Part shown: positions 22,445-64,000 of the stretch, piece by piece | Numbering within the stretch: position 1 is the first letter of the stretch | Layout of the letters: every line of letters starts with the position of its first letter | Assembly: GCA_947446575.1 (NCBI GenBank) | Contig: CANFHC010000004.1 | Coordinates: 62,001 to 126,000, forward strand | DNA length: 64,000 bases | Origin: Bacteriovoracaceae bacterium | Lineage (GTDB): Bacteria; Bdellovibrionota; Bacteriovoracia; Bacteriovoracales; Bacteriovoracaceae | Reading direction: 5' to 3' | Position numbers and translations under genes: made by a program | Notes under the pieces: generated by a model | Seen by the model: the letters and a program-made list of their open reading frames with translations, nothing else | Told to the model about the DNA's origin: nothing | Database searches by the model: none

Positions 22445-23905
22445 TTAAAATGTAAAAATCGTACCTATCTTAGCAGAAACATCTTTGAATTGCTCTTCTT
22501 TTGTAGTGCCTGAAAAGCTCGCTTTGTTGGCAAGAACAGAAAGCCCGCCACTAAAGGTCATGTTCGGTTGGTATAAATATTGACTACCGAATTCTAATCG
22601 GTAATTTGAACTTGAATCATCTGAACCAAAGATTGTAACTTTTTCTTTATAAGATGAAGTTAGGAGAAAATCAAAAAGCAGATACATTCTTACAGACTCA
22701 AAAACAGGCACACTGCCTCTTGTTCCTAGCAATAAACCACTAAAAGTAAAATCTGTGTATCCATCTGTTGTATTTGTGTTTAGACCATAATCGTAATTAG
22801 CGTATCCTGTATAAATATCTACTTGTGGCCCGTAGAAAAAACCCATGGGTAAATATTTATACCCAAATTTTATTCTCGTAACTGAATTAGTCGTGCTGTT
22901 GTTCTCTGTTGTAAATGTTCCCTGATCTTTTGAATATTTCCCAAATTTTTTTCCGATGTCTAAACCAACCCAATAATTTCTTGTGGCCCAGAGTTCGGTT
23001 TCTAAATCAACTCCATAAATTAAACCCGTCATTGATTTTTCTGCTGTCCCTGTTTGAGAAGTTGACCCATTTCCGACATTTAGAAATAAACCAAATGTTC
23101 CAAGTTTTCCAAAATCTTCTTTATCTTTTTCCGGATAATTAATTTGCTGAATCGCTTTCTCTTTTTCACTAGCACGAACCTTTATCCAGTCTTCAAGGCG
23201 CAATTTTTTCTGCCCTTCATAACTTGTAATTTTGGCCTGGGCCTGAGTATCACTGACATCAAAGACTTTCGCGTCTGCAATTTTTTCTGTTTGATAATCA
23301 ATAATTTCTTTTAAAAGCGGATGTTGACGCTTTGTTGTGGGTCTTTCAATTGTAATTTCGCTTCCGTTATAGATATGAGCTTTTTTCCCAATATCAATTG
23401 TAAACTGATCCCCTAAAACACCTTTAACTCTTCCTTCATAGGGAATAGTTTTTTCATAAACATCGAGCCAATTAATAATAGTCTGAGCAATTAAAGCACT
23501 ATCATTACTTTTTAATTGTGTCTGCTCTTTGAAATATTTATCTTCTCCGTTTTCACCAATAATTTCTGTTTTAATATCTGTCGTTCCAACCTGCATACGC
23601 AGTGTAACTCTAATCATTGTTCCGGCTTTTGTTTTGTCGGCAATAACCTTTAAAACGTCTTTGTTTCCTAGGTGTTCCTCTAAGTTTTTTGAGTACTGCC
23701 CTAGAATGTTTATTAATTCCGAATTTGACTTATATGTGCACCAGCTTCCCTCTTTTATATAGTTTTCTATTTCTTCAAAAACTTTAAATCCTACCTTGTT
23801 ATCTACTCCATCTGTGATGGGCAACAACATACAGTGCCTCATCGATTCTGTGGCGCTGACACCTAAAGTAAAGATCATAAAAAAGAAGAAAATTATTTTA
23901 TTCAT
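22445..23905 (-). CDS. Exported protein with C-terminal outer-membrane barrel
   Basis: The 486-residue product has a signal peptide (MNKIIFFFFMIFTLGVSAT), a periplasmic-looking N-terminal domain (about 20-260) with two early cysteines, and a C-terminal half made of alternating strands ending in IGTIFTF, as in outer-membrane beta-barrels. Family unknown. Its start overlaps the upstream HTH-protein stop by 4 bases (ATGA type), so the two are translationally coupled and probably act together. Confidence 0.7.
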   Translation of the reverse strand: MNKIIFFFFMIFTLGVSATESMRHCMLLPITDGVDNKVGFKVFEEIENYIKEGSWCTYKSNSELINILGQYSKNLEEHLGNKDVLKVIADKTKAGTMIRVTLRMQVGTTDIKTEIIGENGEDKYFKEQTQLKSNDSALIAQTIINWLDVYEKTIPYEGRVKGVLGDQFTIDIGKKAHIYNGSEITIERPTTKRQHPLLKEIIDYQTEKIADAKVFDVSDTQAQAKITSYEGQKKLRLEDWIKVRASEKEKAIQQINYPEKDKEDFGKLGTFGLFLNVGNGSTSQTGTAEKSMTGLIYGVDLETELWATRNYWVGLDIGKKFGKYSKDQGTFTTENNSTTNSVTRIKFGYKYLPMGFFYGPQVDIYTGYANYDYGLNTNTTDGYTDFTFSGLLLGTRGSVPVFESVRMYLLFDFLLTSSYKEKVTIFGSDDSSSNYRLEFGSQYLYQPNMTFSGGLSVLANKASFSGTTKEEQFKDVSAKIGTIFTF

Positions 23906-24231
23906 AGTGTTTCTGGAAGCGGAGGCAATTCCGTAATTTGTTGAGACTCATAAACTGAGAGTAGCATTTTGAGATCGTTAATTTCTTCTTGAAGTTCTCG
24001 GTTTTGGCGTTTAAAAAATTCTACTTCTAACTTCTGAGCAAGTTCAGCTTTTGCGTTTGAGTAGTCAACTCTATTCTCTTCAGGAATTTCTTTTGTCCAA
24101 ATAAAATACTTTCCGTTTTCTTCTCTGTATTTTACATGACCCGCTTTAATAGAACGTCTAATTGTAGAAATCGACGTTTTTTTAATGTTTGCGTAGTCGA
24201 GTATAGATAACCAAATTCCATCTTGATTCAT
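23902..24231 (-). CDS. Small HTH / coiled-coil protein
   Basis: The 109-residue product starts with a MerR/excisionase-like helix-turn-helix (about residues 8-48: DYANIKKTSISTIRRSIKAG then HVKYREENGKYFIW, resembling helix-turn-helix plus wing). A coiled coil follows at about 58-95 (heptad-like, Glu/Leu rich). A good ribosome-binding site (GGAG) precedes the ATG. Coupling to an outer-membrane barrel gene is unusual for a DNA-binding protein; it may autoregulate the pair or bind something other than DNA. Confidence 0.6.
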   Translation of the reverse strand: MNQDGIWLSILDYANIKKTSISTIRRSIKAGHVKYREENGKYFIWTKEIPEENRVDYSNAKAELAQKLEVEFFKRQNRELQEEINDLKMLLSVYESQQITELPPLPETL

Positions 24232-24293: not shown

Positions 24294-25541
24294 TTGTCTA
24301 ATATTCTCGAGTATTATTTTTCAAAAAGTCTTCCGGACCCATGTTATGCTTTAAACATGTATCACAATATCGACCTCTCACCTTTTAAGAATAAAAAAAC
24401 TGCACTTGTTTTATCAGGTGGAGTTGTTAAAGCTGCTTCATGGCATTTAGGCGTAGCTTTGGCCTTAGAAGAATTCGGATTTGTTTTAAAGCACAACAAA
24501 TCTCCAATTGATCCTGATTACGAAATTTCAACATATGTTGGTTCAAGTGCTGGCTCATTAATTAATCTCTATTTTGCATCTGGATTTCGACCTATTGATG
24601 TTATCGATGCGACTATTAATCGCAAAAATGCTCAGACATCACTTAAGGCCGTAACCTATTCTGATATGCTTTCAAGAAAAATGCCTTCTCGTGATGCTTT
24701 CAATTTTGATTTTTATAATCCTTTTGAAGGTTTTCCAACACTCTTTAAACAAATGGCGAAGCCATTGCTCTCAATTTCGGGTTTGTTTTCTACGGAAGGC
24801 TTAAACCAATACATGCAAAACCACGTCATTCTTTCGCAGCAATTCGAAGAATACATGGCAGATATGTTTGTAGTCGCCACTCAGCTAGATCATTCTCGCA
24901 AAGTAATTTTCAGTAAATATAATTATCCAAGCCCCATTCATGATTCAACCTCGGAGTACTATACGGGCGTTGATGTTTCTCAAGCGGTTTCTGCCAGCAT
25001 GAGTGTCCCGCCTTTTTATGCTCCATTCGCCGTTAAAAACCCAAGAACATCTAAAATTGACTATTATATTGATGGTGAAATTAGAGAGACACTTTCTAAC
25101 CACATTGCCGTGGATAATAAATGTGATTTTATTATAAGTTCTTGGACTCACACACCTTATCACTATCACGATGAAGTTGGATCTCTTATAAACTACGGAC
25201 TTCCTGCTATTTGTATGCAAGCAATCTATTTGATGATTCAAAAAAAGATAGTCGCCTCTAGAAGTCAAAAGATATTGGCTAAAGATATCATCGATACGGT
25301 TAATGACTATATGGCATCGAATAATTTTTCTCAAAAAGATCGTACTAAGATTGTTTCTATTTTAGAGCGTAAGATGAATTACAATCCCAATATTAAATTC
25401 ATCGACATTTTTCCTGACCACTCTCATTACAAGTTATTTTTCACGAACTCTTTTTCTCTTGACCCTCAAAAAGCCAAATACATCATGACAGCCGGTTATA
25501 AAAAAACCTTTGAAGTATTTAAAAAACTAGAATGGGATTAA
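24294..25541 (+). CDS. Patatin-like phospholipase
   Basis: The patatin fold hydrolyses acyl esters of lipids. The oxyanion-hole segment SGGVVKA (41-47) and the nucleophile elbow GSSAG (Ser85) are clear, and the dyad aspartate is probably in YYIDGEIRE near residue 262. The product is 415 residues from TTG 24294; that start directly follows an in-frame stop and has no ribosome-binding site. ATG 24357 is the alternative and keeps the whole catalytic domain. No signal peptide is seen, so it could be cytosolic, or secreted by another route. Confidence 0.85.
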   Translation: MSNILEYYFSKSLPDPCYALNMYHNIDLSPFKNKKTALVLSGGVVKAASWHLGVALALEEFGFVLKHNKSPIDPDYEISTYVGSSAGSLINLYFASGFRPIDVIDATINRKNAQTSLKAVTYSDMLSRKMPSRDAFNFDFYNPFEGFPTLFKQMAKPLLSISGLFSTEGLNQYMQNHVILSQQFEEYMADMFVVATQLDHSRKVIFSKYNYPSPIHDSTSEYYTGVDVSQAVSASMSVPPFYAPFAVKNPRTSKIDYYIDGEIRETLSNHIAVDNKCDFIISSWTHTPYHYHDEVGSLINYGLPAICMQAIYLMIQKKIVASRSQKILAKDIIDTVNDYMASNNFSQKDRTKIVSILERKMNYNPNIKFIDIFPDHSHYKLFFTNSFSLDPQKAKYIMTAGYKKTFEVFKKLEWD

Positions 25542-25545
25542 AAAT

Positions 25546-27624
25546 TTAGAGTTGCTCAACCAGGTAAGTGCCTTCAGAGCAAAACGTTTTTAAGAACTCA
25601 GTCGATCCATCAGTGTAATCAAGCTTAACGTTCATTAAGCCTTCCATATCACCTACAATAAATGCTTTTTCTGCAAGCTCAGAGCTGTCTTTTGAAAAGT
25701 TTCCATCTTTATCTAAGAAACTTGTTTCAACAAACATTTCTCCGCTGCGGTTTTTTCCATTGGCCTTAAACTCGCGAAGGTCTTTTGAGAGATTTACTTG
25801 AACAACACAACGCTCTTTTAATGAGCTGATCTGATTCATTTCTAATACTTTTCCAATAAAATCGTTGCCTGGGATTTCTATGTCTTTTTCATTCCACGAA
25901 CCAACAAACACAGAGTCTTTTAGGTGTTTAAATTCTAGGTATTTTCTCATTCCGTTAGCAAGCGTTGGCACTTTTACTTCATACGCATTGAGAGTTTTTT
26001 TCTTTGCCGTATTTGTCGTATTAAAATATGAGATTGCATTACCATCAATAACCAATTCTTTCTTTTTTTGTCCCAATAGACTTCTAGTTGTAAACGTAAA
26101 GGTCTCTCTCTCACTTTTACTAAAGCTTGGATCTTCGTAATACATTTCCCCGTCACCAACATAAACAATTTTCTGAGCGACTTCTTTATTATTTAACAAA
26201 TAACGAATTAAAATATTACCTGTTTTCACACCAGCATAGAGAACGTAACTCGCTCCAGCTGCATCCGTTTGTGGCTTAAAGTTTTGGTTAAAATAAAAGC
26301 GCTGAGCAAATCTTGAATCTATTTCTGTATCTACTATAGAAGCGTCAAGAGCTACCATTAAAAGATTTCCTTCAATTGAAAGACCTTGTTTCACTAAAAA
26401 CTTTTGAATTCCTTCTTCATTTATTAGTGGAACTTCAATTCCTTTTGTTGCTCCTAGATTTAACTCTACTCTTGTTGGAATCATTCCTTGAGCTTGCACA
26501 ATTCCCGTCTGAGTATTCATCTCGCCACTAAGTGAGTAAGCAATTGCGATTTCGCCACTCGTTTGATCATCAAGTCTTTCTGCTCTATCGTAATCAGGAA
26601 CAAATTCAAAAGCATTGGCACTTCTACTTTTGTGAGTACTCAAATTAATTTCTTTTGCTCTTAAGATGAATTGTGTCTCGTGAGTATTCAGTATTGGCGG
26701 AGCCATAAATGCGCTTACTTCTTTTTCAAGATCACTCACCGCTTGTTTTTTTGTATTGTTGGTATAATCATAAATCGTATTATCTGGTGAATCCAAAGCA
26801 ATTTCTTGATTTTCTATTTTAGTTGTTTCAGCTAAGGCCGCTTTTTTTTGAGTATTCACACTCGCTAGTCTTACCGGTGAATTTCCAATCTCTCTACTGA
26901 TTGCCTGTTTTACTGTATTTGATATTGGTCTTTCATATAACTGTTGATCAATCGTTTTTGCTTTGGGCAATTTGTCTGAGTAGTCAAACATGACCATCTC
27001 TTCATCCTTAGCAGCTTCTTTTATTGCGGCTTCTTCATGTGCAACATTTCTTTCTGGCGCTGGTTGAATTGTTTTAACTTCATCTGCCTCTATAGGGGCA
27101 GTAATTTCTTTTACGCTTTCTTGTGTACTGGCCTGAGCAACAACAACTTCATCTTTAATAGTTGCTTCATATGTAGAAGAGATTGCCATGTTTTCAAACT
27201 TTGAATACTCAACCGACTCAACACTATAGGCATACAGATCTATCAGACCTTTGTTGTTAATTTCGTATTCGGAAAATAATTCATTTGGTTTTGTAACTTC
27301 AACAACGGCCACGATTGCTTTTTCTTCAATAATGATTTTTGGTTTAATCATTCTTACTGCGTATCTAGTCTGTTTAATTTTTTGTGTGAGTTCTTTATTG
27401 ATAACGTTAATGATGTCATTAGTAACGGTTGTTTCGTCAGACAATGTCGTTGCATTTTCAGTCTTAGAAATTTCTTGAACATTCGCAGCTAAATTAGCAA
27501 ATGCCGAAAAATTTATTTCAGTTGTTTTATTTTTTTGTGTTGCGAATGAATGGATTTGCGACAGCAGAATTGCTGAAATGAAAAAACAAGAAGATGTCGT
27601 GAGTAACGTCTTTTTTATGGTCAT
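25546..27624 (-). CDS. Large exported protein of unknown function
   Basis: I start at ATG 27624 (MTIKK...), three codons inside a TTG start, giving 692 residues. The N-terminus is a signal peptide ending near IHSFA. The N-terminal half (about 30-330) is low-complexity and rich in Glu, Lys, Thr and Ala, probably disordered. The C-terminal half looks more folded and beta-rich. No family recognised. The gene holds five copies of the decamer TGARTAYTCA, with two more just upstream. It follows the ATP synthase operon on the same strand, separated by a hairpin. Confidence 0.7.
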   Translation of the reverse strand: MTIKKTLLTTSSCFFISAILLSQIHSFATQKNKTTEINFSAFANLAANVQEISKTENATTLSDETTVTNDIINVINKELTQKIKQTRYAVRMIKPKIIIEEKAIVAVVEVTKPNELFSEYEINNKGLIDLYAYSVESVEYSKFENMAISSTYEATIKDEVVVAQASTQESVKEITAPIEADEVKTIQPAPERNVAHEEAAIKEAAKDEEMVMFDYSDKLPKAKTIDQQLYERPISNTVKQAISREIGNSPVRLASVNTQKKAALAETTKIENQEIALDSPDNTIYDYTNNTKKQAVSDLEKEVSAFMAPPILNTHETQFILRAKEINLSTHKSRSANAFEFVPDYDRAERLDDQTSGEIAIAYSLSGEMNTQTGIVQAQGMIPTRVELNLGATKGIEVPLINEEGIQKFLVKQGLSIEGNLLMVALDASIVDTEIDSRFAQRFYFNQNFKPQTDAAGASYVLYAGVKTGNILIRYLLNNKEVAQKIVYVGDGEMYYEDPSFSKSERETFTFTTRSLLGQKKKELVIDGNAISYFNTTNTAKKKTLNAYEVKVPTLANGMRKYLEFKHLKDSVFVGSWNEKDIEIPGNDFIGKVLEMNQISSLKERCVVQVNLSKDLREFKANGKNRSGEMFVETSFLDKDGNFSKDSSELAEKAFIVGDMEGLMNVKLDYTDGSTEFLKTFCSEGTYLVEQL

Positions 27625-27719
27625 AGCTATCAAATAATTCTAACAAAGCTTTAATGATGATCAAGAAAGAGTTCTTTTTGCCTAGCTGATTTTGAATAGT
27701 CGAATGAGGATTTTATGAA

Positions 27720-27770
27720 AATTTTGAGTACTCATTTAATAAATAATTAAAAAATGAATACTCAAAATGT
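27720..27770 (-). terminator. AT-rich hairpin downstream of atpC
   Basis: Nearly perfect inverted arms at 27721-27738 and 27752-27769, each carrying one TGARTAYTCA decamer (27725-27734 and 27755-27764), with a loop of about 13 A/T bases. On the minus strand the second arm runs into TTTT. It lies 6-55 bases after the atpC stop, so it could end the ATP operon, though the stem is A/T-rich and weak. Regulator binding is an alternative because of the decamers. Confidence 0.45.
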
Positions 27771-34204: not shown

Positions 34205-35146
34205 TTACTTTGATAATAAGAATTCATATATATCGTTAAATTCTGCCTCATTGCTAAACTTAAGTACGATATTCCCAGAACCATTTTTACCCGAGTTAAT
34301 TCCAAAGTGGTAACCTGTTTTTTGCTCGAGAGTCTTTCTAAATTGATCAAGTTTTTCATCAAAAAATGGATTTTTCCTAGCTGCCTTTTCTTTAAGTGGT
34401 TTTTTGCCTTTAATTCCGTTTTCTAAATCGCGGACAGACCAATTATTAGCTACAGCCTCGTTAGCGAGTCTAATGGCATCCTCACGCTCTTTAACAGCTG
34501 CTAGAATTTTAGCGTGACCAAAAGAAAGCGATTCTTTTTGAAGAAGATCAATTACTGGACGAGGAAGGTTCAATATTCTTAGAAAGTTAGCAACTGTTGA
34601 GCGTTCCTTTCCAAGTTTTTTTGCTACGTCTTCTTGAGTGAGTTTGTATTCGTTCATCAATTGGTAATATGCCAATGCTTCTTCCACACAATTTAAATCT
34701 GATCGTTGAACGTTTTCAATGATCGACATGATCATTTTTTCACGTTCAGTCGCTCTCTTCACCACGACAGGAACTTGCCCAAGACCCGCTTTTTTAGCTG
34801 CTCTTAAACGTCTCTCACCTGCCACTAGTTCGAATTGACCATTTTCTAATTCAGCTACAATTAGCGGCTGAATAATTCCATTTTCTTTTATAGATTCAGC
34901 AAGTTCTTCTAAATCTTTTTCTTTAAAAATTTTTCTTGGTTGATTTGGATTTGTCTTAATTGATCCAACATCTACAAGCAGGGGCGTATTTTCAATTCGA
35001 ATTTCTACTTCTCTTTCCGCTGGAGAATTATCTTCGATTTCTTGATTTCCATAGTGACTATTATAAGTCTGATTAACAACAGACTGAGGAGTCGACTCTT
35101 GAAGTAGTGATGCGATTCCTTTTCCTAGTGCAAGTTTCTTGGCCAT
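34205..35146 (-). CDS. parB: Chromosome-partitioning protein ParB
   Basis: ParB binds parS, spreads as a CTP-dependent clamp and loads SMC. The 313-residue product has NPNQPRKIF then the CTP-binding GERRLRAAKKAGL motif, and the parS-binding helix-turn-helix (LTQEDVAKKLGKERSTVANFLRI). A C-terminal dimerisation domain ends the protein. It is 15 bases after parA. Confidence 0.97.
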   Translation of the reverse strand: MAKKLALGKGIASLLQESTPQSVVNQTYNSHYGNQEIEDNSPAEREVEIRIENTPLLVDVGSIKTNPNQPRKIFKEKDLEELAESIKENGIIQPLIVAELENGQFELVAGERRLRAAKKAGLGQVPVVVKRATEREKMIMSIIENVQRSDLNCVEEALAYYQLMNEYKLTQEDVAKKLGKERSTVANFLRILNLPRPVIDLLQKESLSFGHAKILAAVKEREDAIRLANEAVANNWSVRDLENGIKGKKPLKEKAARKNPFFDEKLDQFRKTLEQKTGYHFGINSGKNGSGNIVLKFSNEAEFNDIYEFLLSK

Positions 35147-35161
35147 AACAACTCCGTAAGC

Positions 35162-36067
35162 TTATTGCTCGAATGATTGAGTTCCATCAAAATTAATATT
35201 TTCTAAATTAGGGAGAATATCCATAATCAATTCTTCAGGAATTTTTGGTATTGAAGTTTCTTCTGGTTTCACCGCTACTTTTGATGACCCACTTTTCTTA
35301 AAACGTTCTTTAAGAATAAGTTCCTTGGCCAAGGCTAAATAGGCTTCACTGCCTTTTGATTCGATATCGTAAAGAATAATTGGTTTTCCAAATGAAGGAC
35401 ACTCAGCAAGCTTTACGTTTCTTGGAATAATTGTATTGAAAACAGAATCGCCAAAATGAGTTTTAATTTCATTGGCAACTTGCTTGTGTAAACCTGAACG
35501 TGAATCAAACATCGTTAATAAAATTCCATCTAATTCCAATTCTGGATTTAGCGATGATTTAATTAATTTAACTGTGTTCAATAATTGTGCGAGTCCTTCC
35601 ATTGCTAAATATTCTGTTTGCATAGGAACGATGTATGAGTGAGCTGCGTTCAATGCATTTACAGTTAAAAGTCCCAATGAAGGAGGACAATCGATGATAA
35701 TATAATCGTAGTCCTTTTCAACAGCTTTAAATGCTGTTTTTAATTTTGATTCGCGAGCAAACAAACTCACTAACTCTAATTCTGCTCCCACTAAATTGTT
35801 ATCAGAGGGACAAATATCAAAACATGGAAGTTCTGAGTGGTAGATCGCTTCTTTTAAACCAATCTGACCAATCAATGCATGATAAATATTTTTTTGAGCA
35901 AATGTATCTTTCGAAAGACCAATACTGATACTTCCGTTACCTTGTGGATCGAGGTCTATTAGTAGAGTCTTTTTCTCAGCTACTGCTAGACACGCCGCCA
36001 AATTTACTGAAGATGTAGTCTTACCTACCCCACCTTTTTGGTTCATCATCGCTATAATTTTAGCCAT
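35162..36067 (-). CDS. parA: Chromosome-partitioning ATPase ParA
   Basis: ParA (Soj) forms DNA-bound ATP dimers that move ParB-parS. The 301-residue product has the deviant Walker A KGGVGKTT (11-18) with the signature lysine, DLDPQGN, and DCPPSLG. A C-terminal extension of about 45 residues beyond the core, rich in Lys/Pro/Glu, is unusual. Operon partner of parB and downstream of rsmG. Confidence 0.97.
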   Translation of the reverse strand: MAKIIAMMNQKGGVGKTTSSVNLAACLAVAEKKTLLIDLDPQGNGSISIGLSKDTFAQKNIYHALIGQIGLKEAIYHSELPCFDICPSDNNLVGAELELVSLFARESKLKTAFKAVEKDYDYIIIDCPPSLGLLTVNALNAAHSYIVPMQTEYLAMEGLAQLLNTVKLIKSSLNPELELDGILLTMFDSRSGLHKQVANEIKTHFGDSVFNTIIPRNVKLAECPSFGKPIILYDIESKGSEAYLALAKELILKERFKKSGSSKVAVKPEETSIPKIPEELIMDILPNLENINFDGTQSFEQ

Positions 36068-36119: not shown

Positions 36120-36758
36120 CTAAAGTAACTCAGAAAATTTAATAATTTTTTCAGTTTGCATTGTTCCACGTAGAACTTTTCTATTTTTGAAGCCTAAAAA
36201 CATTCGACCCTCCGTCCCAGGAACATCGTACGACTTTTCTTCAATGAGTTCCCAATTACTTTCGATCATATCCTCTATATCTTCCAGCTCATAAAAGTTT
36301 GGTCCTTTATAAAAGAAAACATATAAAGTTTTATTTGTGCGCAACAGTGGAAGGTAGTCCGAAACTTTTCCCACACCTTTAAAAGTGATGACGGTGTCGA
36401 CATCAAAGTCCACGGTCTCTAATCTTTGATGTTTTAAAAAAACATTTATTAAGCCAAGTTTTCCGGCAATCTTTTGAACAACCTGAGCTTTTTTTGCTCT
36501 GGCCTCAAATCCGATAAATTTTTTATCTGGGTTCGTGAAGGCCAAAGGCAAAATTGGAAATCCGCCACCAAACCCAACATCCACCATTAACTTGGTTTTC
36601 TCGAGTGCGTTTTTAAAAACATTACTTTCAGTTTCAGGCAAAACTGAATCCACGATTTGTTTTTGGTAAAATTCTTCGGGTGAGGTAATTCTTGTCAAAT
36701 TGATTCCGGCAAACTCACCAGTAAGCAGATCAAGGTACTTTTTACTAAAATCTTTCAT
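36120..36758 (-). CDS. rsmG: 16S rRNA (guanine527-N7)-methyltransferase
   Basis: RsmG (GidB) methylates G527 of 16S rRNA. The 212-residue product has the SAM-binding motif VDVGFGGGFPILPLA and the VITFKGVGKV region. The usual end of the protein is followed by an extra ~20 residues (NRKVLRGTMQTEKIIKFSELL type), which contain the codons that overlap a parS-like site. Its start shares a base with the mnmG stop, so coupling is likely. Confidence 0.93.
   Translation of the reverse strand: MKDFSKKYLDLLTGEFAGINLTRITSPEEFYQKQIVDSVLPETESNVFKNALEKTKLMVDVGFGGGFPILPLAFTNPDKKFIGFEARAKKAQVVQKIAGKLGLINVFLKHQRLETVDFDVDTVITFKGVGKVSDYLPLLRTNKTLYVFFYKGPNFYELEDIEDMIESNWELIEEKSYDVPGTEGRMFLGFKNRKVLRGTMQTEKIIKFSELL
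36162..36177. promoter_or_regulatory. parS-like site inside rsmG
   Basis: TGTTCCACGTAGAACT; read on the minus strand, AGTTCTACGTGGAACA, which differs at two positions from TGTTCCACGTGGAACA. It is about 100 bases upstream of parA start and lies inside the C-terminal codons of rsmG. Core CACGT and the GTTC/GAAC arms are intact, so ParB binding is likely. Confidence 0.65.
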
Positions 36759-38614: not shown

Positions 38615-38630
38615 TGTTCCACGTAGAACA
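38615..38630. promoter_or_regulatory. parS-like site upstream of mnmG
   Basis: TGTTCCACGTAGAACA, or TGTTCTACGTGGAACA on the other strand, one mismatch from the widely conserved parS TGTTCCACGTGGAACA. It begins 4 bases upstream of the mnmG ATG in the gap after mnmE, so it could also affect mnmG expression. It is 2.5 kb from the other site and about 6 kb from oriC, a normal distance for parS. Confidence 0.75.
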
Positions 38631-42523: not shown

Positions 42524-42644
42524 TGCTAAACAGGCCGCGTCACGTGTAAGAAAATGTGAAACTATGATTTATGGCCATTAACTTTTGGGCCATGCTACAT
42601 CTTTTGTCTCAGAATTTTTTGGCAGTCCCTCGGAGCACACACAC

Positions 42645-44201
42645 ATGGCGCATGATTTTCCATTCGATCATTTTCTAAAAATTGGTAATAAAAATAGTCC
42701 TACGTCCTTTAATCAATTTAATCCTGATCTTTCTAAAAATTCCGCTGAAATTAGCCAATCTAGCATTCCAGATGCTGAGCTAAGTGTAATTAATCAGGAA
42801 GTTTTGAATCACCTTAAGACTATTGTTCCTGAAATGAAATTTAAAACCTATTTTGAAAATAACTTCGAACTCAACCGAATTAATGAAGGTTCTGTGGTTT
42901 TTGAAGTAAAGACGGCATTTATAAAGAAATCCGTTGAAAACTATAAAGATGAAGTGGCGAAAGCACTTTATAATGTTTTAGGAACGCAGTTTGAAATCAT
43001 TGTCGAAACTCGCGATAATAATGAACTAAATATTATGAGTTACAGCTCTAATAACTCAAATAACAATAATAAAAGTTTCAATGATGTAAAATTCACTTTG
43101 GATTTAACTCCTACGAAAGATGACCTAGTAGCAAAAGCTCAAGCTCAATACATTGAGCACATGCACCCGAACCAATCGGGAATAATTATCGATCGTTCAA
43201 AAACATTTGATAACTTTATTGTTGGACCAACAAATAATATGGCCCAAGCTGCATCGAAGGCTGTTGCACAAAATCCTGGCAAGAGTGGAAAATATCCATC
43301 TTTATATGTGCACAGTAACTCTGGTTTAGGGAAAACTCACCTACTCCATGCTGTTGCCAATGAAATAAATGAAAAACATCCTGGACTCACAATCTGTTTA
43401 ATTACAGCTCGAGATTTTATGGATGAAATGATCACCCTAATGAAAAATAACAGAATCAATGAATTCGTAAAAAAATATACGGAAAAAGTTGATGTCTTAA
43501 TGATCGATGATATCCATGAATTAAAAAACAAAGAAGGGACTCAAGATCAGTTCTTTCATGTGTTCAACGAAATGCACAATAAGGGTAAGCAACTTATCTT
43601 TACATCAGATAAACGTCCAAAAGAAATTGATGGTATCTCAGAGCGAATTAAAACTCGTCTTCAATGGGGACTTGTGGTTGATATCCAGCCACCTGACTTA
43701 GAAACGAGAATAGCTATACTTCGCCGCAAAATGGAAGCTTTAGATCTTTACGTCACTGAAGATGTTTTAACGTTAATTGCATCGAGAATTAAAACTAACA
43801 TTAGAGAGCTTGAGGGCTCGCTGGTTAGACTTAAAGCTGTAAGTGAACTCATGAATGTGGAAATTGAAATTGACCTCGTAAAAGAGCAATTAATGCTTCC
43901 TAATAATGAATCAGAAAAAGAAATGACTATAGAGTACGTAGCAAAAGCGACTGCTCAGTATTTTAGAATTCCACTTGCGGATTTAAAATCAAAAGGCAGA
44001 AGCCAAGACATTACTAAAGCTCGTCATATCGCTATGTACCTGTCACGCAAGATCGTAAATGCCAAACAACAAGAGATCGGTGCATTTTTTGGTGGTCGAG
44101 ACCATTCTTCAGTAATTCATGCCGTTAATACGATCGCAGAAAAAGTTAAAACAGACTCGTCTCTTTCAAAAGACATCAATTCGATCGAATCTAATTTATA
44201 A
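42645..44201 (+). CDS. dnaA: Chromosomal replication initiator DnaA
   Basis: DnaA opens oriC. I place the start at ATG 42645, with GGAG 9 bases upstream; a TTG at 42585 is possible. The 518-residue product is longer than typical (about 450-470), mainly through a long N-terminal extension and linker (residues 1-165). Walker A is SNSGLGKTH, Walker B LMIDDIHEL, and the C-terminal DNA-binding signature SRKIVNAKQQEIGAFFGGRDHSSVIHA is clear. Followed by an intrinsic terminator and oriC. Confidence 0.96.
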   Translation: MAHDFPFDHFLKIGNKNSPTSFNQFNPDLSKNSAEISQSSIPDAELSVINQEVLNHLKTIVPEMKFKTYFENNFELNRINEGSVVFEVKTAFIKKSVENYKDEVAKALYNVLGTQFEIIVETRDNNELNIMSYSSNNSNNNNKSFNDVKFTLDLTPTKDDLVAKAQAQYIEHMHPNQSGIIIDRSKTFDNFIVGPTNNMAQAASKAVAQNPGKSGKYPSLYVHSNSGLGKTHLLHAVANEINEKHPGLTICLITARDFMDEMITLMKNNRINEFVKKYTEKVDVLMIDDIHELKNKEGTQDQFFHVFNEMHNKGKQLIFTSDKRPKEIDGISERIKTRLQWGLVVDIQPPDLETRIAILRRKMEALDLYVTEDVLTLIASRIKTNIRELEGSLVRLKAVSELMNVEIEIDLVKEQLMLPNNESEKEMTIEYVAKATAQYFRIPLADLKSKGRSQDITKARHIAMYLSRKIVNAKQQEIGAFFGGRDHSSVIHAVNTIAEKVKTDSSLSKDINSIESNL

Positions 44202-61201: not shown

Positions 61202-64000
61202 CTAAGATGGAATTATTTGCTGAGCAATTTCTTTCGAAAACTTGAGTAAATCATTTTGAGTAATGACAGTTTTTGAATTATAGATAACTCGATAGTCTGG
61301 AGTGAATTGATAAATTTTTGGCCTGGAAATAAAAAAGTTCACTACCCGATCTCTTAACTCAACATTAGATTCTAAAAATCCCTTATCAAACTTTAAAGTG
61401 ATGGAAGTCCCGCCAACATTTACCGATTTTAAACCAAGAGTTTGCAAATAAATTCTCGTTTCAAGAACCACAAATAGATTTGCAAGTTCTTCACTGAATA
61501 ATCCATAAACATCTTGAAATTCATCTTTGATATTTTCTAAAAGAGTGAGTGTTTCACAATTTGAAAGACGCTTGTATTGCTTAAGTCGCTCGCTTGGATC
61601 ACTAATATAATGATTAGGAATAAATGCAGGAAAGGGAGTGAGTAATTCAATATCTTTTTTAAGGATTTTTCTCTCTCCTCGAATTTCATTAATGGCGTCT
61701 TTTAAAAGCTCCATATAAAGTTCAAGGCCCACGGCTTCGATGTGACCAGATTGAGTTGCGCCTAGAATATCTCCAGCACCTCTGATTTCTAAATCTACCG
61801 AAGCTATATTAAATCCCGAGCCCATATCTGCATAAGTTTGCAGGGCGTGTAATCTTTTTTGAGCAATTGTTGATATTTCACGCATGCGAGGGACGACAAA
61901 ATAGGCATATGCTTTTTTATCAGATCGGCCAATTCGTCCTCGTAATTGATGAAGTTGAGAGAGCCCATAAGTGTCGGCACGATCAATAATCATCGTATTG
62001 GCATTTGGAATATCAATTCCCGATTCTATGATAGTTGTAGCTATTAAAACTTGGTAATTGCCATTATAAAAAGAATTGATTCTATCTTCCAAATCTTTTT
62101 CGCTCATCTGCCCGTGAGCAAATGTGATTTTAGCTTCTGGAACGAGCTCGCGAATTGAGGCGGCATATTGTTCAATATCGTTAACTTTGTTGTGAACAAC
62201 GAAAACTTGTCCACCTCTTTGCAATTCTTTTTGAATTGCATTTTGAATAGTCAACTCATCTTCTTTTATTACATAAGTTTTAATCGATTGTCGTCTTGGC
62301 GGAGCCGTCTTTATAAGAGACAGGTCTCGCAAACCAAGGAAGGCCATTTGTAATGTTCTTGGAATTGGTGTTGCGGTCAATGTTAAAAAATCCACAGATG
62401 CTTTCATTAGTTTTAATTTTTCTTTATGACCAACACCGAAGCGCTGTTCTTCATCGACAATAACTAGCCCTAAATCAGCAAATTTTAATTTATCTGATAA
62501 AAGTTTATGTGTTCCAATGAGAATATCAATTTCACCTTTTTCAGCTTTAGCTAAAATTTCTTTGCACTCTTTAGCGGATTTAAATCGTGATATGAATTCA
62601 ATACGAACAGGGAAATCTTTAAAACGTTTAGTAAAAGAGTTGAAATGTTGAAGAGCTAAAATTGTTGTAGGCACTAAAACGGCAACTTGTTTTTTATCCT
62701 CGACTGCTTTGAAAGCAGCTCGCATCGCTACTTCTGTTTTTCCAAAACCAACATCACCACAAACTAAGAAATCCATTGGTACAGGTTTCTGCATTGATTC
62801 TAAAACTTCTTCGATTGCCCGTGCTTGATCGGGAGTTTCATCAAACGGAAATGCTAATTCAAACTCTTTATATAGATGGTCTGGTTCAGAAAAAGCGTAA
62901 GCGACAGATGATTGTCTTTCGGCTTGTAGTTTTAACAAATCAAATGCCAGTGCTTTGGCAGAAGTTTTAGCTCTCGCTTTAAGCATTACAAATTTATTAG
63001 TGCGAAGACTGTCTTTCTTTAGGCCGGCGTGAGCATCAGCATGTTTTTGTATTTGATTTAATTTATAAACAGGAACATAAACTTTATCGTTTTCAGCATA
63101 TTTCAAAACTAAAAAGTCTGTTTTGTCTCCGCCAATATTCAGCGCTTCAAGACCTAGGTACTCACCTACTCCGTATTCATTGTGAATAACGAAGTCACCA
63201 GCTTTTAGTGTAGCTAATTGTTCAGCAAATAAATCGAGATCAACTTTTGAAGATTTTTGAACTTTTGTTTTTTTAGCAGCAAACAAGTCACCATCAGTTA
63301 TGATGAGAAACTTCTCCCCTTCATAATAGAACCCTTCCGTAACCTTATAAGGTAAAAATTCTATGCGTTCTTTTAATTCGCGAGGGTAATCTTGTAATTC
63401 GATTAAATGTTTAATTTCTTCTTTAGATGTTTCGCTATATGAAGAAAAATAAACCTGTCCTTGAAATTCGAAATGTTTCTTTAGAAAGTTTAAGGCTGCT
63501 TTAATATATTCTGGCTTCGGTAGAGCTGGATTGATGTGTTGATTTAAAAAAGTTTTTGTCTTAATTAAACGCAAGTCAACCGCGTCGGAAACTTCAGAAA
63601 AATTTAAACTTAAGTTTAACTGATCCACCAAAATTGCTTTTTTCTTTTCGAGGTTCTTGAAAAAAGAAAAGTCATATAGCTGATCAAAGTGAGGCAAAAT
63701 ATTTTCACTATTTAGATTCTCTTCTTCATTTTCGTACTCAACTCGCAAGCTCTCAATTGTTTCTAGATAAGATCTGTAAGTTTCGTTGGCACTTAGTACG
63801 GAAACAATACAATCTTCGTAAATAAAATAATCAAATAGTGTTGCAGCCTTCTTAAAAAAGAGCGGTATATAGACGGGATAATTTTCAAAAAGTAGTCCGT
63901 CAGAAAGGCGGGCAAAAAGAGCTTTTCTAAATTCAAATTTATTTTTAAAGGAAGGGCCAGGTTGTGGAAGATTTTCTCTGAGAGTAACGGGAAAATCATT
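61202..64000 (-). CDS. mfd: Transcription-repair coupling factor Mfd (partial, N-terminus outside window)
   Basis: Mfd frees stalled RNA polymerase and recruits UvrA. The open frame reaches the window edge with no start, giving 932 visible residues; a TTG at 63748 would truncate the domain, and the codons upstream of it (ending FDYFIYEDCIVSVLSANETY) continue the same frame. The RNA polymerase interaction domain (FVIHNEYGVGEYLG), Walker A GDVGFGKTE, DEEQRFG and TATPIPRTL are clear. Confidence 0.96.
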   Translation of the reverse strand, partial: NDFPVTLRENLPQPGPSFKNKFEFRKALFARLSDGLLFENYPVYIPLFFKKAATLFDYFIYEDCIVSVLSANETYRSYLETIESLRVEYENEEENLNSENILPHFDQLYDFSFFKNLEKKKAILVDQLNLSLNFSEVSDAVDLRLIKTKTFLNQHINPALPKPEYIKAALNFLKKHFEFQGQVYFSSYSETSKEEIKHLIELQDYPRELKERIEFLPYKVTEGFYYEGEKFLIITDGDLFAAKKTKVQKSSKVDLDLFAEQLATLKAGDFVIHNEYGVGEYLGLEALNIGGDKTDFLVLKYAENDKVYVPVYKLNQIQKHADAHAGLKKDSLRTNKFVMLKARAKTSAKALAFDLLKLQAERQSSVAYAFSEPDHLYKEFELAFPFDETPDQARAIEEVLESMQKPVPMDFLVCGDVGFGKTEVAMRAAFKAVEDKKQVAVLVPTTILALQHFNSFTKRFKDFPVRIEFISRFKSAKECKEILAKAEKGEIDILIGTHKLLSDKLKFADLGLVIVDEEQRFGVGHKEKLKLMKASVDFLTLTATPIPRTLQMAFLGLRDLSLIKTAPPRRQSIKTYVIKEDELTIQNAIQKELQRGGQVFVVHNKVNDIEQYAASIRELVPEAKITFAHGQMSEKDLEDRINSFYNGNYQVLIATTIIESGIDIPNANTMIIDRADTYGLSQLHQLRGRIGRSDKKAYAYFVVPRMREISTIAQKRLHALQTYADMGSGFNIASVDLEIRGAGDILGATQSGHIEAVGLELYMELLKDAINEIRGERKILKKDIELLTPFPAFIPNHYISDPSERLKQYKRLSNCETLTLLENIKDEFQDVYGLFSEELANLFVVLETRIYLQTLGLKSVNVGGTSITLKFDKGFLESNVELRDRVVNFFISRPKIYQFTPDYRVIYNSKTVITQNDLLKFSKEIAQQIIPS

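Follow-up and report, generated by a model that had tools for sequence, protein, structure and literature searches.

The DNA analyzed here, a 64-kb stretch from a member of the Bacteriovoracaceae (hereafter, the window), is an origin region and contains dnaA, gidA, parA, parB, a bactofilin-like gene, the atp operon, a gene for an exported protein (denoted exp), a patatin-like gene and a gene for a small, putative DNA-binding protein (denoted hth). The dnaA and parB genes were identified with family models; parA, gidA, the bactofilin-like gene and the atp operon are what we take these genes to be from their sequences, and the patatin-like gene is presumably of that kind, given its characteristic motifs and an NCBIfam match below the threshold. 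The features of interest are the following.

22445..23905, minus strand: gene directly downstream of hth and overlapping it, with no family match
23902..24231, minus strand: hth, 109 aa, predicted winged helix (Xis/BldC/MerR type) with a long C-terminal helix, the likely binder
24058..24067: hybrid site TGAGTAGTCA in hth, one mismatch, codon 54 (peptide VDYS)
24294..25541, plus strand: patatin-like gene, divergent from hth
25546..27633, minus strand: exp, with an N-terminal hydrophobic helix; TTG start at 27633, the ATG at 27624 being the more likely start
26510..26519: site TGAGTATTCA in exp (peptide MNTQT)
26633..26642: site TGAGTACTCA in exp, a perfect palindrome (peptide LSTHK)
26681..26690: site TGAGTATTCA in exp (peptide LNTHE)
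26849..26858: site TGAGTATTCA in exp (peptide VNTQK)
26977..26986: hybrid site TGAGTAGTCA in exp, one mismatch (peptide FDYS), a G-type plus a C-type half-site
27202..27211: site TGAATACTCA in exp, in the other codon phase (peptide VEYSK)
27637..27664, minus strand: promoter-like TTGATC-16-TAGAAT before exp
27725..27734: site TGAGTACTCA upstream of exp, 110 bp from its ATG
27755..27764: site TGAATACTCA upstream of exp, 140 bp from its ATG; together with the site at 27725, the hairpin described after atpC
34205..36067, minus strand: parB and parA
36162..36177: parS-like TGTTCCACGTAGAACT, a separate element
38615..38630: parS-like TGTTCCACGTAGAACA, a separate element
42585..44201, plus strand: dnaA, marking the origin, 18 kb from hth

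The exp protein is modeled as disordered at residues 85-313 and beta-rich at 316-693. A protein search detected it in 31 of 57 genomes and in none of the 22 from other families; it has no significant match in Pfam or NCBIfam, and Foldseek returned low-TM rows, mostly beta-sandwich proteins. Across the family, exp appears as a C-terminal beta-rich domain joined to a fast-evolving disordered linker. Elements similar to the promoter-like sequence before exp are seen by eye at the same place in the genus, the promoter scan as a whole not being above chance (3 found vs 7.6 in shuffles). In other families of the phylum, 19 of 20 loci (L207-L226) retain the divergent arrangement of hth and the patatin-like gene, and given this conserved pairing, the patatin-like gene may share a control region with hth.

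The decamer TGARTAYTCA is found 7 times in the window, compared to 0.55 copies expected from dinucleotide shuffles (sd 0.72), and none of 100 shuffles reached 7; the first-pass annotation had estimated less than one chance copy per 64 kb. That annotation placed the copies at 26510, 26633, 26681, 26849, 27202, 27725 and 27755 and reported no others; all seven are there, within 26510-27764, and the window has no further exact copy. As it also described, five lie within the 695-aa open reading frame 25546-27633 on the minus strand, and four of the five share a codon phase (VNTQ, LNTH, LSTH, MNTQ), the fifth reading VEYS. The two near copies, TGAGTAGTCA, are real as well, one at 26977 and the other at 24058, rather than at 24059. 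An isolated TGAATAGTCA at 62244-62253, far from the cluster, probably occurs by chance.

Genome-wide, there are 41 copies of TGARTAYTCA in 3.39 Mb vs 19 for the reversed pattern, and the window shuffles scale to about 29. Outside the cluster, 32 of the 34 copies fall within mechanically called open reading frames (at least 70 aa), as do 26 of the 28 examined among the 36 other copies in the genome G003. The contexts of these 34 and 28 copies give no clear sign of a shared regulon; a copy is present in both members of one orthologous pair (L080/L103, 80% identical proteins) and of one pair of homologues (L003/L110, 46% identical). The form TGASTASTCA occurs 13 times in G000 and 16 times in G003, with 4 and 6 copies, respectively, in the exp/hth locus and the others scattered at or below control level; the strong form of the site is near control level genome-wide. 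In G015, 6 of 21 TGASTASTCA copies are in the first 112 kb from dnaA (G015:C1:1-112000, L227-L230); in G085, the copy after dnaA recurs as in G015, and no further matching cluster was seen. The isolated copies thus fit the expectation of common, random occurrence that the first-pass annotation had named as contrary to its reading, and the cluster does not: copies in other parts of the genome are close to background level, and only the cluster stands out.

In the 20-kb neighborhoods of nine relatives from the genus, every TGARTAYTCA copy is located in one of three places, namely, beyond atpC (1-2 copies, 22-57 bp from it), in exp, and at hth (one copy in the gene or just upstream in 6 of the 9). 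The cluster is present in all 10 genus loci with full-length exp and hth, the window included, contrary to the lack of conservation in relatives that would have spoken against a functional element. When all perfect 10-bp palindromes in the exp-upstream, exp and hth-upstream regions were ranked, TGAGTACTCA came first in the genus, with 27 copies in 11 of 11 loci vs 0.08 expected, and first again (25 copies in 15 loci vs 0.82 expected) when 61 further loci carrying both hth and exp were ranked, with TGACTAGTCA second there (11 copies in 10 loci vs 0.07 expected). In the 12 hth-less loci, the top-ranked palindrome had only 2 copies. Among the papers listed as matches for TGAGTACTCA, no title concerns such a site. 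Mixed sites, such as TGACTACTCA, are common, which suggests that the unit is the half-site TGAnTA; the pairing of a G-type with a C-type half-site is the most common combination among the exp genes of the family.

The motif was therefore redefined as TGAnTAnTCA, broader than in the first-pass annotation, and further sites came to light, in some of the species at the promoter or 5' end of hth and in 12 of 51 family genomes just downstream of dnaA. The 11 genus loci contain 18 sites in the 250 bp upstream of exp, 51 in the exp coding sequence, 5 in the 150 bp upstream of hth, 2 in the hth coding sequence and 0 in the rest; for 65 other hth-bearing loci, the respective counts are 57, 163, 10, 21 and 18. 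The corresponding densities for exp-upstream, exp coding sequence and rest are 6.5, 2.2 and 0 per kb in the genus, 4.2, 1.35 and 0.018 per kb in the other hth-bearing loci, and 0, 0 and 0.020 per kb in the 12 hth-less loci. Six permuted patterns gave at most 3 copies in the exp-upstream regions and at most 8 in exp, one of them occurring upstream of exp in 1 and 3 copies. At least one site is present in 10 of 11 exp-upstream regions of the genus, 40 of 53 of the other hth-bearing loci and none of the 12 hth-less ones; in total, 73 exp-upstream sites compare with 0.68 in mononucleotide shuffles. The family sample includes records of Bacteriovorax, Bacteriovoracaceae and Halobacteriovorax; the ranking and density counts were made without L043-L050, L053, L055, L059, L061 and L031, which duplicate records in L122-L201, and L124, a shortened genus-like locus, was counted among the other hth-bearing loci for density.

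Conceivably, the short peptides [NST]T[QH] and [DE]YS of exp could form a protein-level repeat whose codons happen to spell the decamer. Indeed, the MNTQ and FDYS peptides recur in the exp alignment, and shuffling of synonymous codons (in all loci with exp of at least 1300 nt) still yields some sites. The shuffles, however, give 9.7 sites in the genus (maximum 19 of 1000 shuffles) vs 51 observed, and 24.8 (maximum 38 of 1000) vs 163 observed in 56 other hth-bearing exp genes, so that the observed numbers exceed all 1000 shuffles, about five-fold and about six-fold, whereas three control patterns are at expectation. Because the synonymous shuffles produce a fifth or less of the observed sites, the DNA itself is under selection. 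Moreover, the 216 coding-sequence sites are divided between two codon phases, 118 in [NSTI]-[TSNI]-[QH] and 98 in [DE]-Y-S, which encode unrelated peptides (the third phase would create an in-frame stop codon), and the motif is also found outside the exp coding sequence, in front of both exp and hth and after dnaA. A protein repeat is, accordingly, a highly improbable explanation. The sequence comparisons show a conserved array of sites that is kept by selection at the DNA level in the family. The first-pass guess of a regulator-binding site spread over the gene is supported in this form, the role of a regulator in the strict sense being a candidate. Within exp, the sites are concentrated in the part modeled as disordered in the window's protein (residues 85-313) or at its border with the beta-rich part; counted from the exp start, their median position is 865 nt, and the quartiles are 712 and 1066.

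The pair of sites beyond atpC forms an inverted repeat with 22-nt arms, 86% complementary and separated by 4 nt, that folds as RNA on the minus strand (-20.4 kcal/mol, z -6.8) and, less stably, on the plus strand (-15.5 kcal/mol, z -2.4). The first-pass annotation correctly saw two decamers in the arms and placed the hairpin after atpC. A terminator of this operon, or another RNA structure, would account for the folding and for the excess of self-complementary upstream sites (35 of 75 vs 24.7 expected from independent halves), although a dimer that binds palindromes would produce the same excess, and 40 of the 75 upstream sites are not self-complementary. The position of the pair speaks against this explanation: it precedes the exp start by 78-140 bp in the genus and by 165-199 bp in L054, a locus in which about 700 bp separate it from atpC. 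Because the pair keeps its distance to exp rather than to atpC, it belongs to the upstream region of exp and not to an atp terminator, and the latter reading, with no terminator found at the pair by the terminator scan, is very unlikely. The pair also lacks the hallmarks of intrinsic terminators, a G+C-rich hairpin with a T run at a conserved distance from atpC. The two sites are spaced by 21-30 bp in the genus, with no fixed helical phasing, and Rfam has no match within the window.

Several observations link the sites to hth. At least one exp site is present in 60 of 65 loci with hth and in none of 12 without it, a comparison in which the loss of sites is confounded with loss of the disordered linker because the hth-less exp genes are mostly shorter. 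On the tree of the patatin-like protein (a quick method, with long-branch warnings), the state of hth changes at least five to six times, and a sign test on independent pairs was not significant (median p 0.25), with 3.2 pairs pointing the same way, 0 the other way and 1.8 undecided. This hth/exp comparison left out 10 of 89 loci (L052, L124, L151, L159, L167, L168, L173, L185, L196 and L198) that have no exp, an exp below 1300 nt or no patatin-like protein. Among the five hth-bearing loci without exp sites (L179, L183, L057, L058 and L149), the sisters L179 and L183 have the recognition helix IAGARS or IGAARS instead of ISTIRR, and L057 has a short coiled coil. By eye, no clean rule connects half-site preference with recognition-helix residues. 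The hth promoters of L207, L209 and L213, in family f6, have variant sites, for example, TGCGTAGTCA, TGACTACGCA and TGACTAGTCG, perhaps because of a shifted specificity.

The motif also occurs at the hth gene itself in part of the loci. By eye, 5 of 10 genus species (L127, L128, L129, L131 and L042) have a site directly after the -10-like TAGAAT of hth, at -21 to -29, and the other 5 genus loci have none in the 150 bp upstream of hth; one of the latter is the window's species, where only the hybrid site at codon 54 is present. Among the 65 other loci, the 150 bp upstream of hth contain a site in 9 and none in 56. The hth coding sequences of these loci contain 21 sites vs 6.9 in synonymous shuffles (maximum 15), mostly at codons 6-11; the 2 sites in the genus do not exceed the 1.0 given by shuffles. 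Outside the family, in 20 loci (about 400 kb) chosen by hand from hth matches, 10 of 14 sites are at most 250 bp from the hth start, where 0.34 are expected (P 7e-14) and nine control patterns have 0 copies. These 10 sites fall in 6 of the 20 loci; the remaining 14 have none within 250 bp, and no exp was found in the 20 loci.

The binder could, in principle, be a different DNA-binding protein, encoded elsewhere and controlling hth as well as exp, given that co-occurrence and promoter position do not prove the case for hth and regulators can share targets. Yet the motif marks the hth start in loci where exp was not found, exp sites are absent from all 12 loci lacking hth, and both loci with an altered recognition helix lack sites, which makes an unlinked binder unlikely. 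Rather, the decamer is most likely the docking site of hth, judging from the sequence associations.

The properties of hth are compatible with such a role. The structure model (mean pLDDT 82.7) includes a helix at residues 51-97, and its best fold matches are Pukovnik Xis (Z 6.6) and BldC (Z 6.4), middling scores that common folds can reach and that speak to the fold only. Among 19 hth members, HTH_17 was detected in 9 (best E 1.9e-5), MerR in 5 (best 2.7e-4) and DUF3972 in 12 (best 0.002), all with E up to 1; the window's own hth alone has no significant Pfam match, PDB sequence searches gave only noise, and no RacA model is among the NCBIfam rows for hth. By its modeled fold, hth would qualify as a winged-helix protein of the MerR-like/excisionase type. 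Of 191 genomes sampled from the phylum, 166 yielded a homologue, with two matches only in G158 and G168 among the rows listed; hth has no match anywhere in G018, G019 and G020 and is missing from some family members. A search of the open-licence literature found nothing on this protein or the motif.

The location near the origin calls for comparison with parS sites, which are usually found near origins, two being known in Bdellovibrio (PMC10547168). The decamer could be imagined as a diverged parS bound by ParB, given that parAB is about 6.5 kb away. The window, however, contains two separate parS-like 16-mers, neither a perfect palindrome, and such 16-mers are also found in 7 of the 9 genus relatives (the L049 and L050 regions end before parAB); the decamer is therefore a separate element. 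It also tracks hth rather than parB, which is retained in L056 and L061 (20 kb, without hth), so that a diverged parS is extremely unlikely. ParB-parS likewise involves palindromes near oriC, differing in sequence, and the decamer does not contain the parS consensus 16-mer.

The hth gene is 20-44 kb from dnaA in all 13 mapped genomes (12 of family f6 and 1 of the window's family), and sites occur next to dnaA itself. Two were first seen in G015, in the interval that separates dnaA from the gene after it; in the 800 bp downstream of dnaA of 51 family genomes (the regions L237, L241, L264 and L275 being shorter), there are 21 sites in 12 genomes, seven of these with at least two, compared to 0.70 expected at the local background and 0 to 3 for each of eight control patterns. 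Without G015, the count is 19 sites in 11 of 50 regions. All these sites start within 260 bp of dnaA. DnaA-box-like 9-mers (at most one mismatch) are present in all 12 site-bearing regions; in 7, a site lies between such 9-mers, and in 5, all sites precede the first. Two loci that bear hth and lack exp sites, L058 (G025) and L149 (putatively G212), have three TGACTAGTCA and two sites, respectively, downstream of dnaA, so that two of the five exceptions keep origin sites. No such sites were found in 7 regions from genomes without hth (G223 known from the L152 locus only).

Control of exp does not explain the sites downstream of dnaA, and hth might be mainly an architectural, anchoring or replication-control protein of the origin region, RacA-like in action, with the sites serving for loading and exp being merely tolerant DNA near the origin. 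The presence of hth in most phylum genomes at an origin-proximal position, the sites after dnaA, their presence in L058 and L149 in place of exp sites and the concentration of exp sites in and around the disordered part would all fit. Against this, the exp-upstream sites keep their distance to the exp start and not to atpC, an arrangement that looks regulatory; no site downstream of dnaA was found in 39 of the 51 family genomes, in the examined genus members or in the 12 genomes of family f6; the strong form stays near control level across the genome; and not all family members have hth. A mainly origin-directed role is, hence, possible but improbable.

The reading that we consider probable combines these elements. 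The decamer would be a pair of half-sites, TGAnTA facing TAnTCA, bound by an hth dimer encoded about 2-3 kb away. The dimer would repress its own gene via the site directly after the -10-like hexamer, and its coiled coil would bridge the sites upstream of exp with those 0.4-1.1 kb inside the gene, folding the exp promoter into a loop and thereby controlling exp. Comparable promoter control is exerted by GalR or LacI loops. In addition, hth probably shapes the origin region because conserved sites are found within tens of kb of dnaA, some just downstream of it. Looping control of exp accounts for the constant position of the upstream sites, and a role in organizing the origin accounts both for the origin sites and for the location of hth across the phylum; a mixture of the two roles appears likely.

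Among known systems, looping of the GalR/LacI type involves operators inside a gene. As in these looping repressors, sites here are on both sides of a promoter, with one set intragenic, plus a likely autoregulatory site; GalR and LacI are unrelated to hth, and the present arrangement has a spacing of about 0.5-1.2 kb and up to six intragenic sites. RacA of Bacillus subtilis combines a DNA-binding domain with a coiled coil, anchors the chromosome, tethering the origin to the pole via DivIVA, and occupies many sites over a wide origin-centered zone. The MerR-type winged helix of RacA has a predicted counterpart in hth, where a long helix is predicted to follow; the sites are symmetric, and the hth gene and its putative sites are near the origin. 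The match to the RacA domain (5i44) ranks 39th (Z 4.4, rmsd 1.9, 43 residues), a weak score common to many winged helices. The decamer, in contrast, is AT-rich and 10 bp long, whereas the RacA site is described as GC-rich (PMC5859096), and the conserved decamer sites are confined to a few loci rather than spread over a wide zone. Because both the composition and the spread of the sites differ, hth does not belong with RacA. BldC and Xis are the best structural matches of the hth DNA-binding domain (Z 6.4 and 6.6); BldC is described as binding direct repeats head to tail, without a coiled coil (PMC5859096), unlike the inverted repeats of the decamer and the predicted long C-terminal helix of hth.

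In this family, putative binding sites at the DNA level have shaped the exp coding sequence in both of the reading frames that they occupy, which can mislead readings of protein conservation. Because the likely docking protein is encoded in most sampled genomes of the phylum, hth is a candidate organizer of the origin region. According to a review on Bdellovibrio, a complex that is not yet known must anchor a region near the origin (PMC11318664), and hth can be named as a candidate for this role, nothing more. A more specific and rather doubtful version of this idea would make hth the protein that anchors or organizes the origin side in the predatory Bdellovibrionota. It would act as a winged-helix/coiled-coil dimer, autorepressed, that is loaded onto TGAnTAnTCA sites in oriC or close to it and either ties the region to a cell structure or controls the start of replication, with arrays hidden in the codons of the disordered linker of exp. 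In either case, a putative factor that is present in most sampled genomes of a predator phylum, and is encoded near the origin wherever it has been mapped, can now be described by its protein, its DNA motif and the exact positions of its sites.
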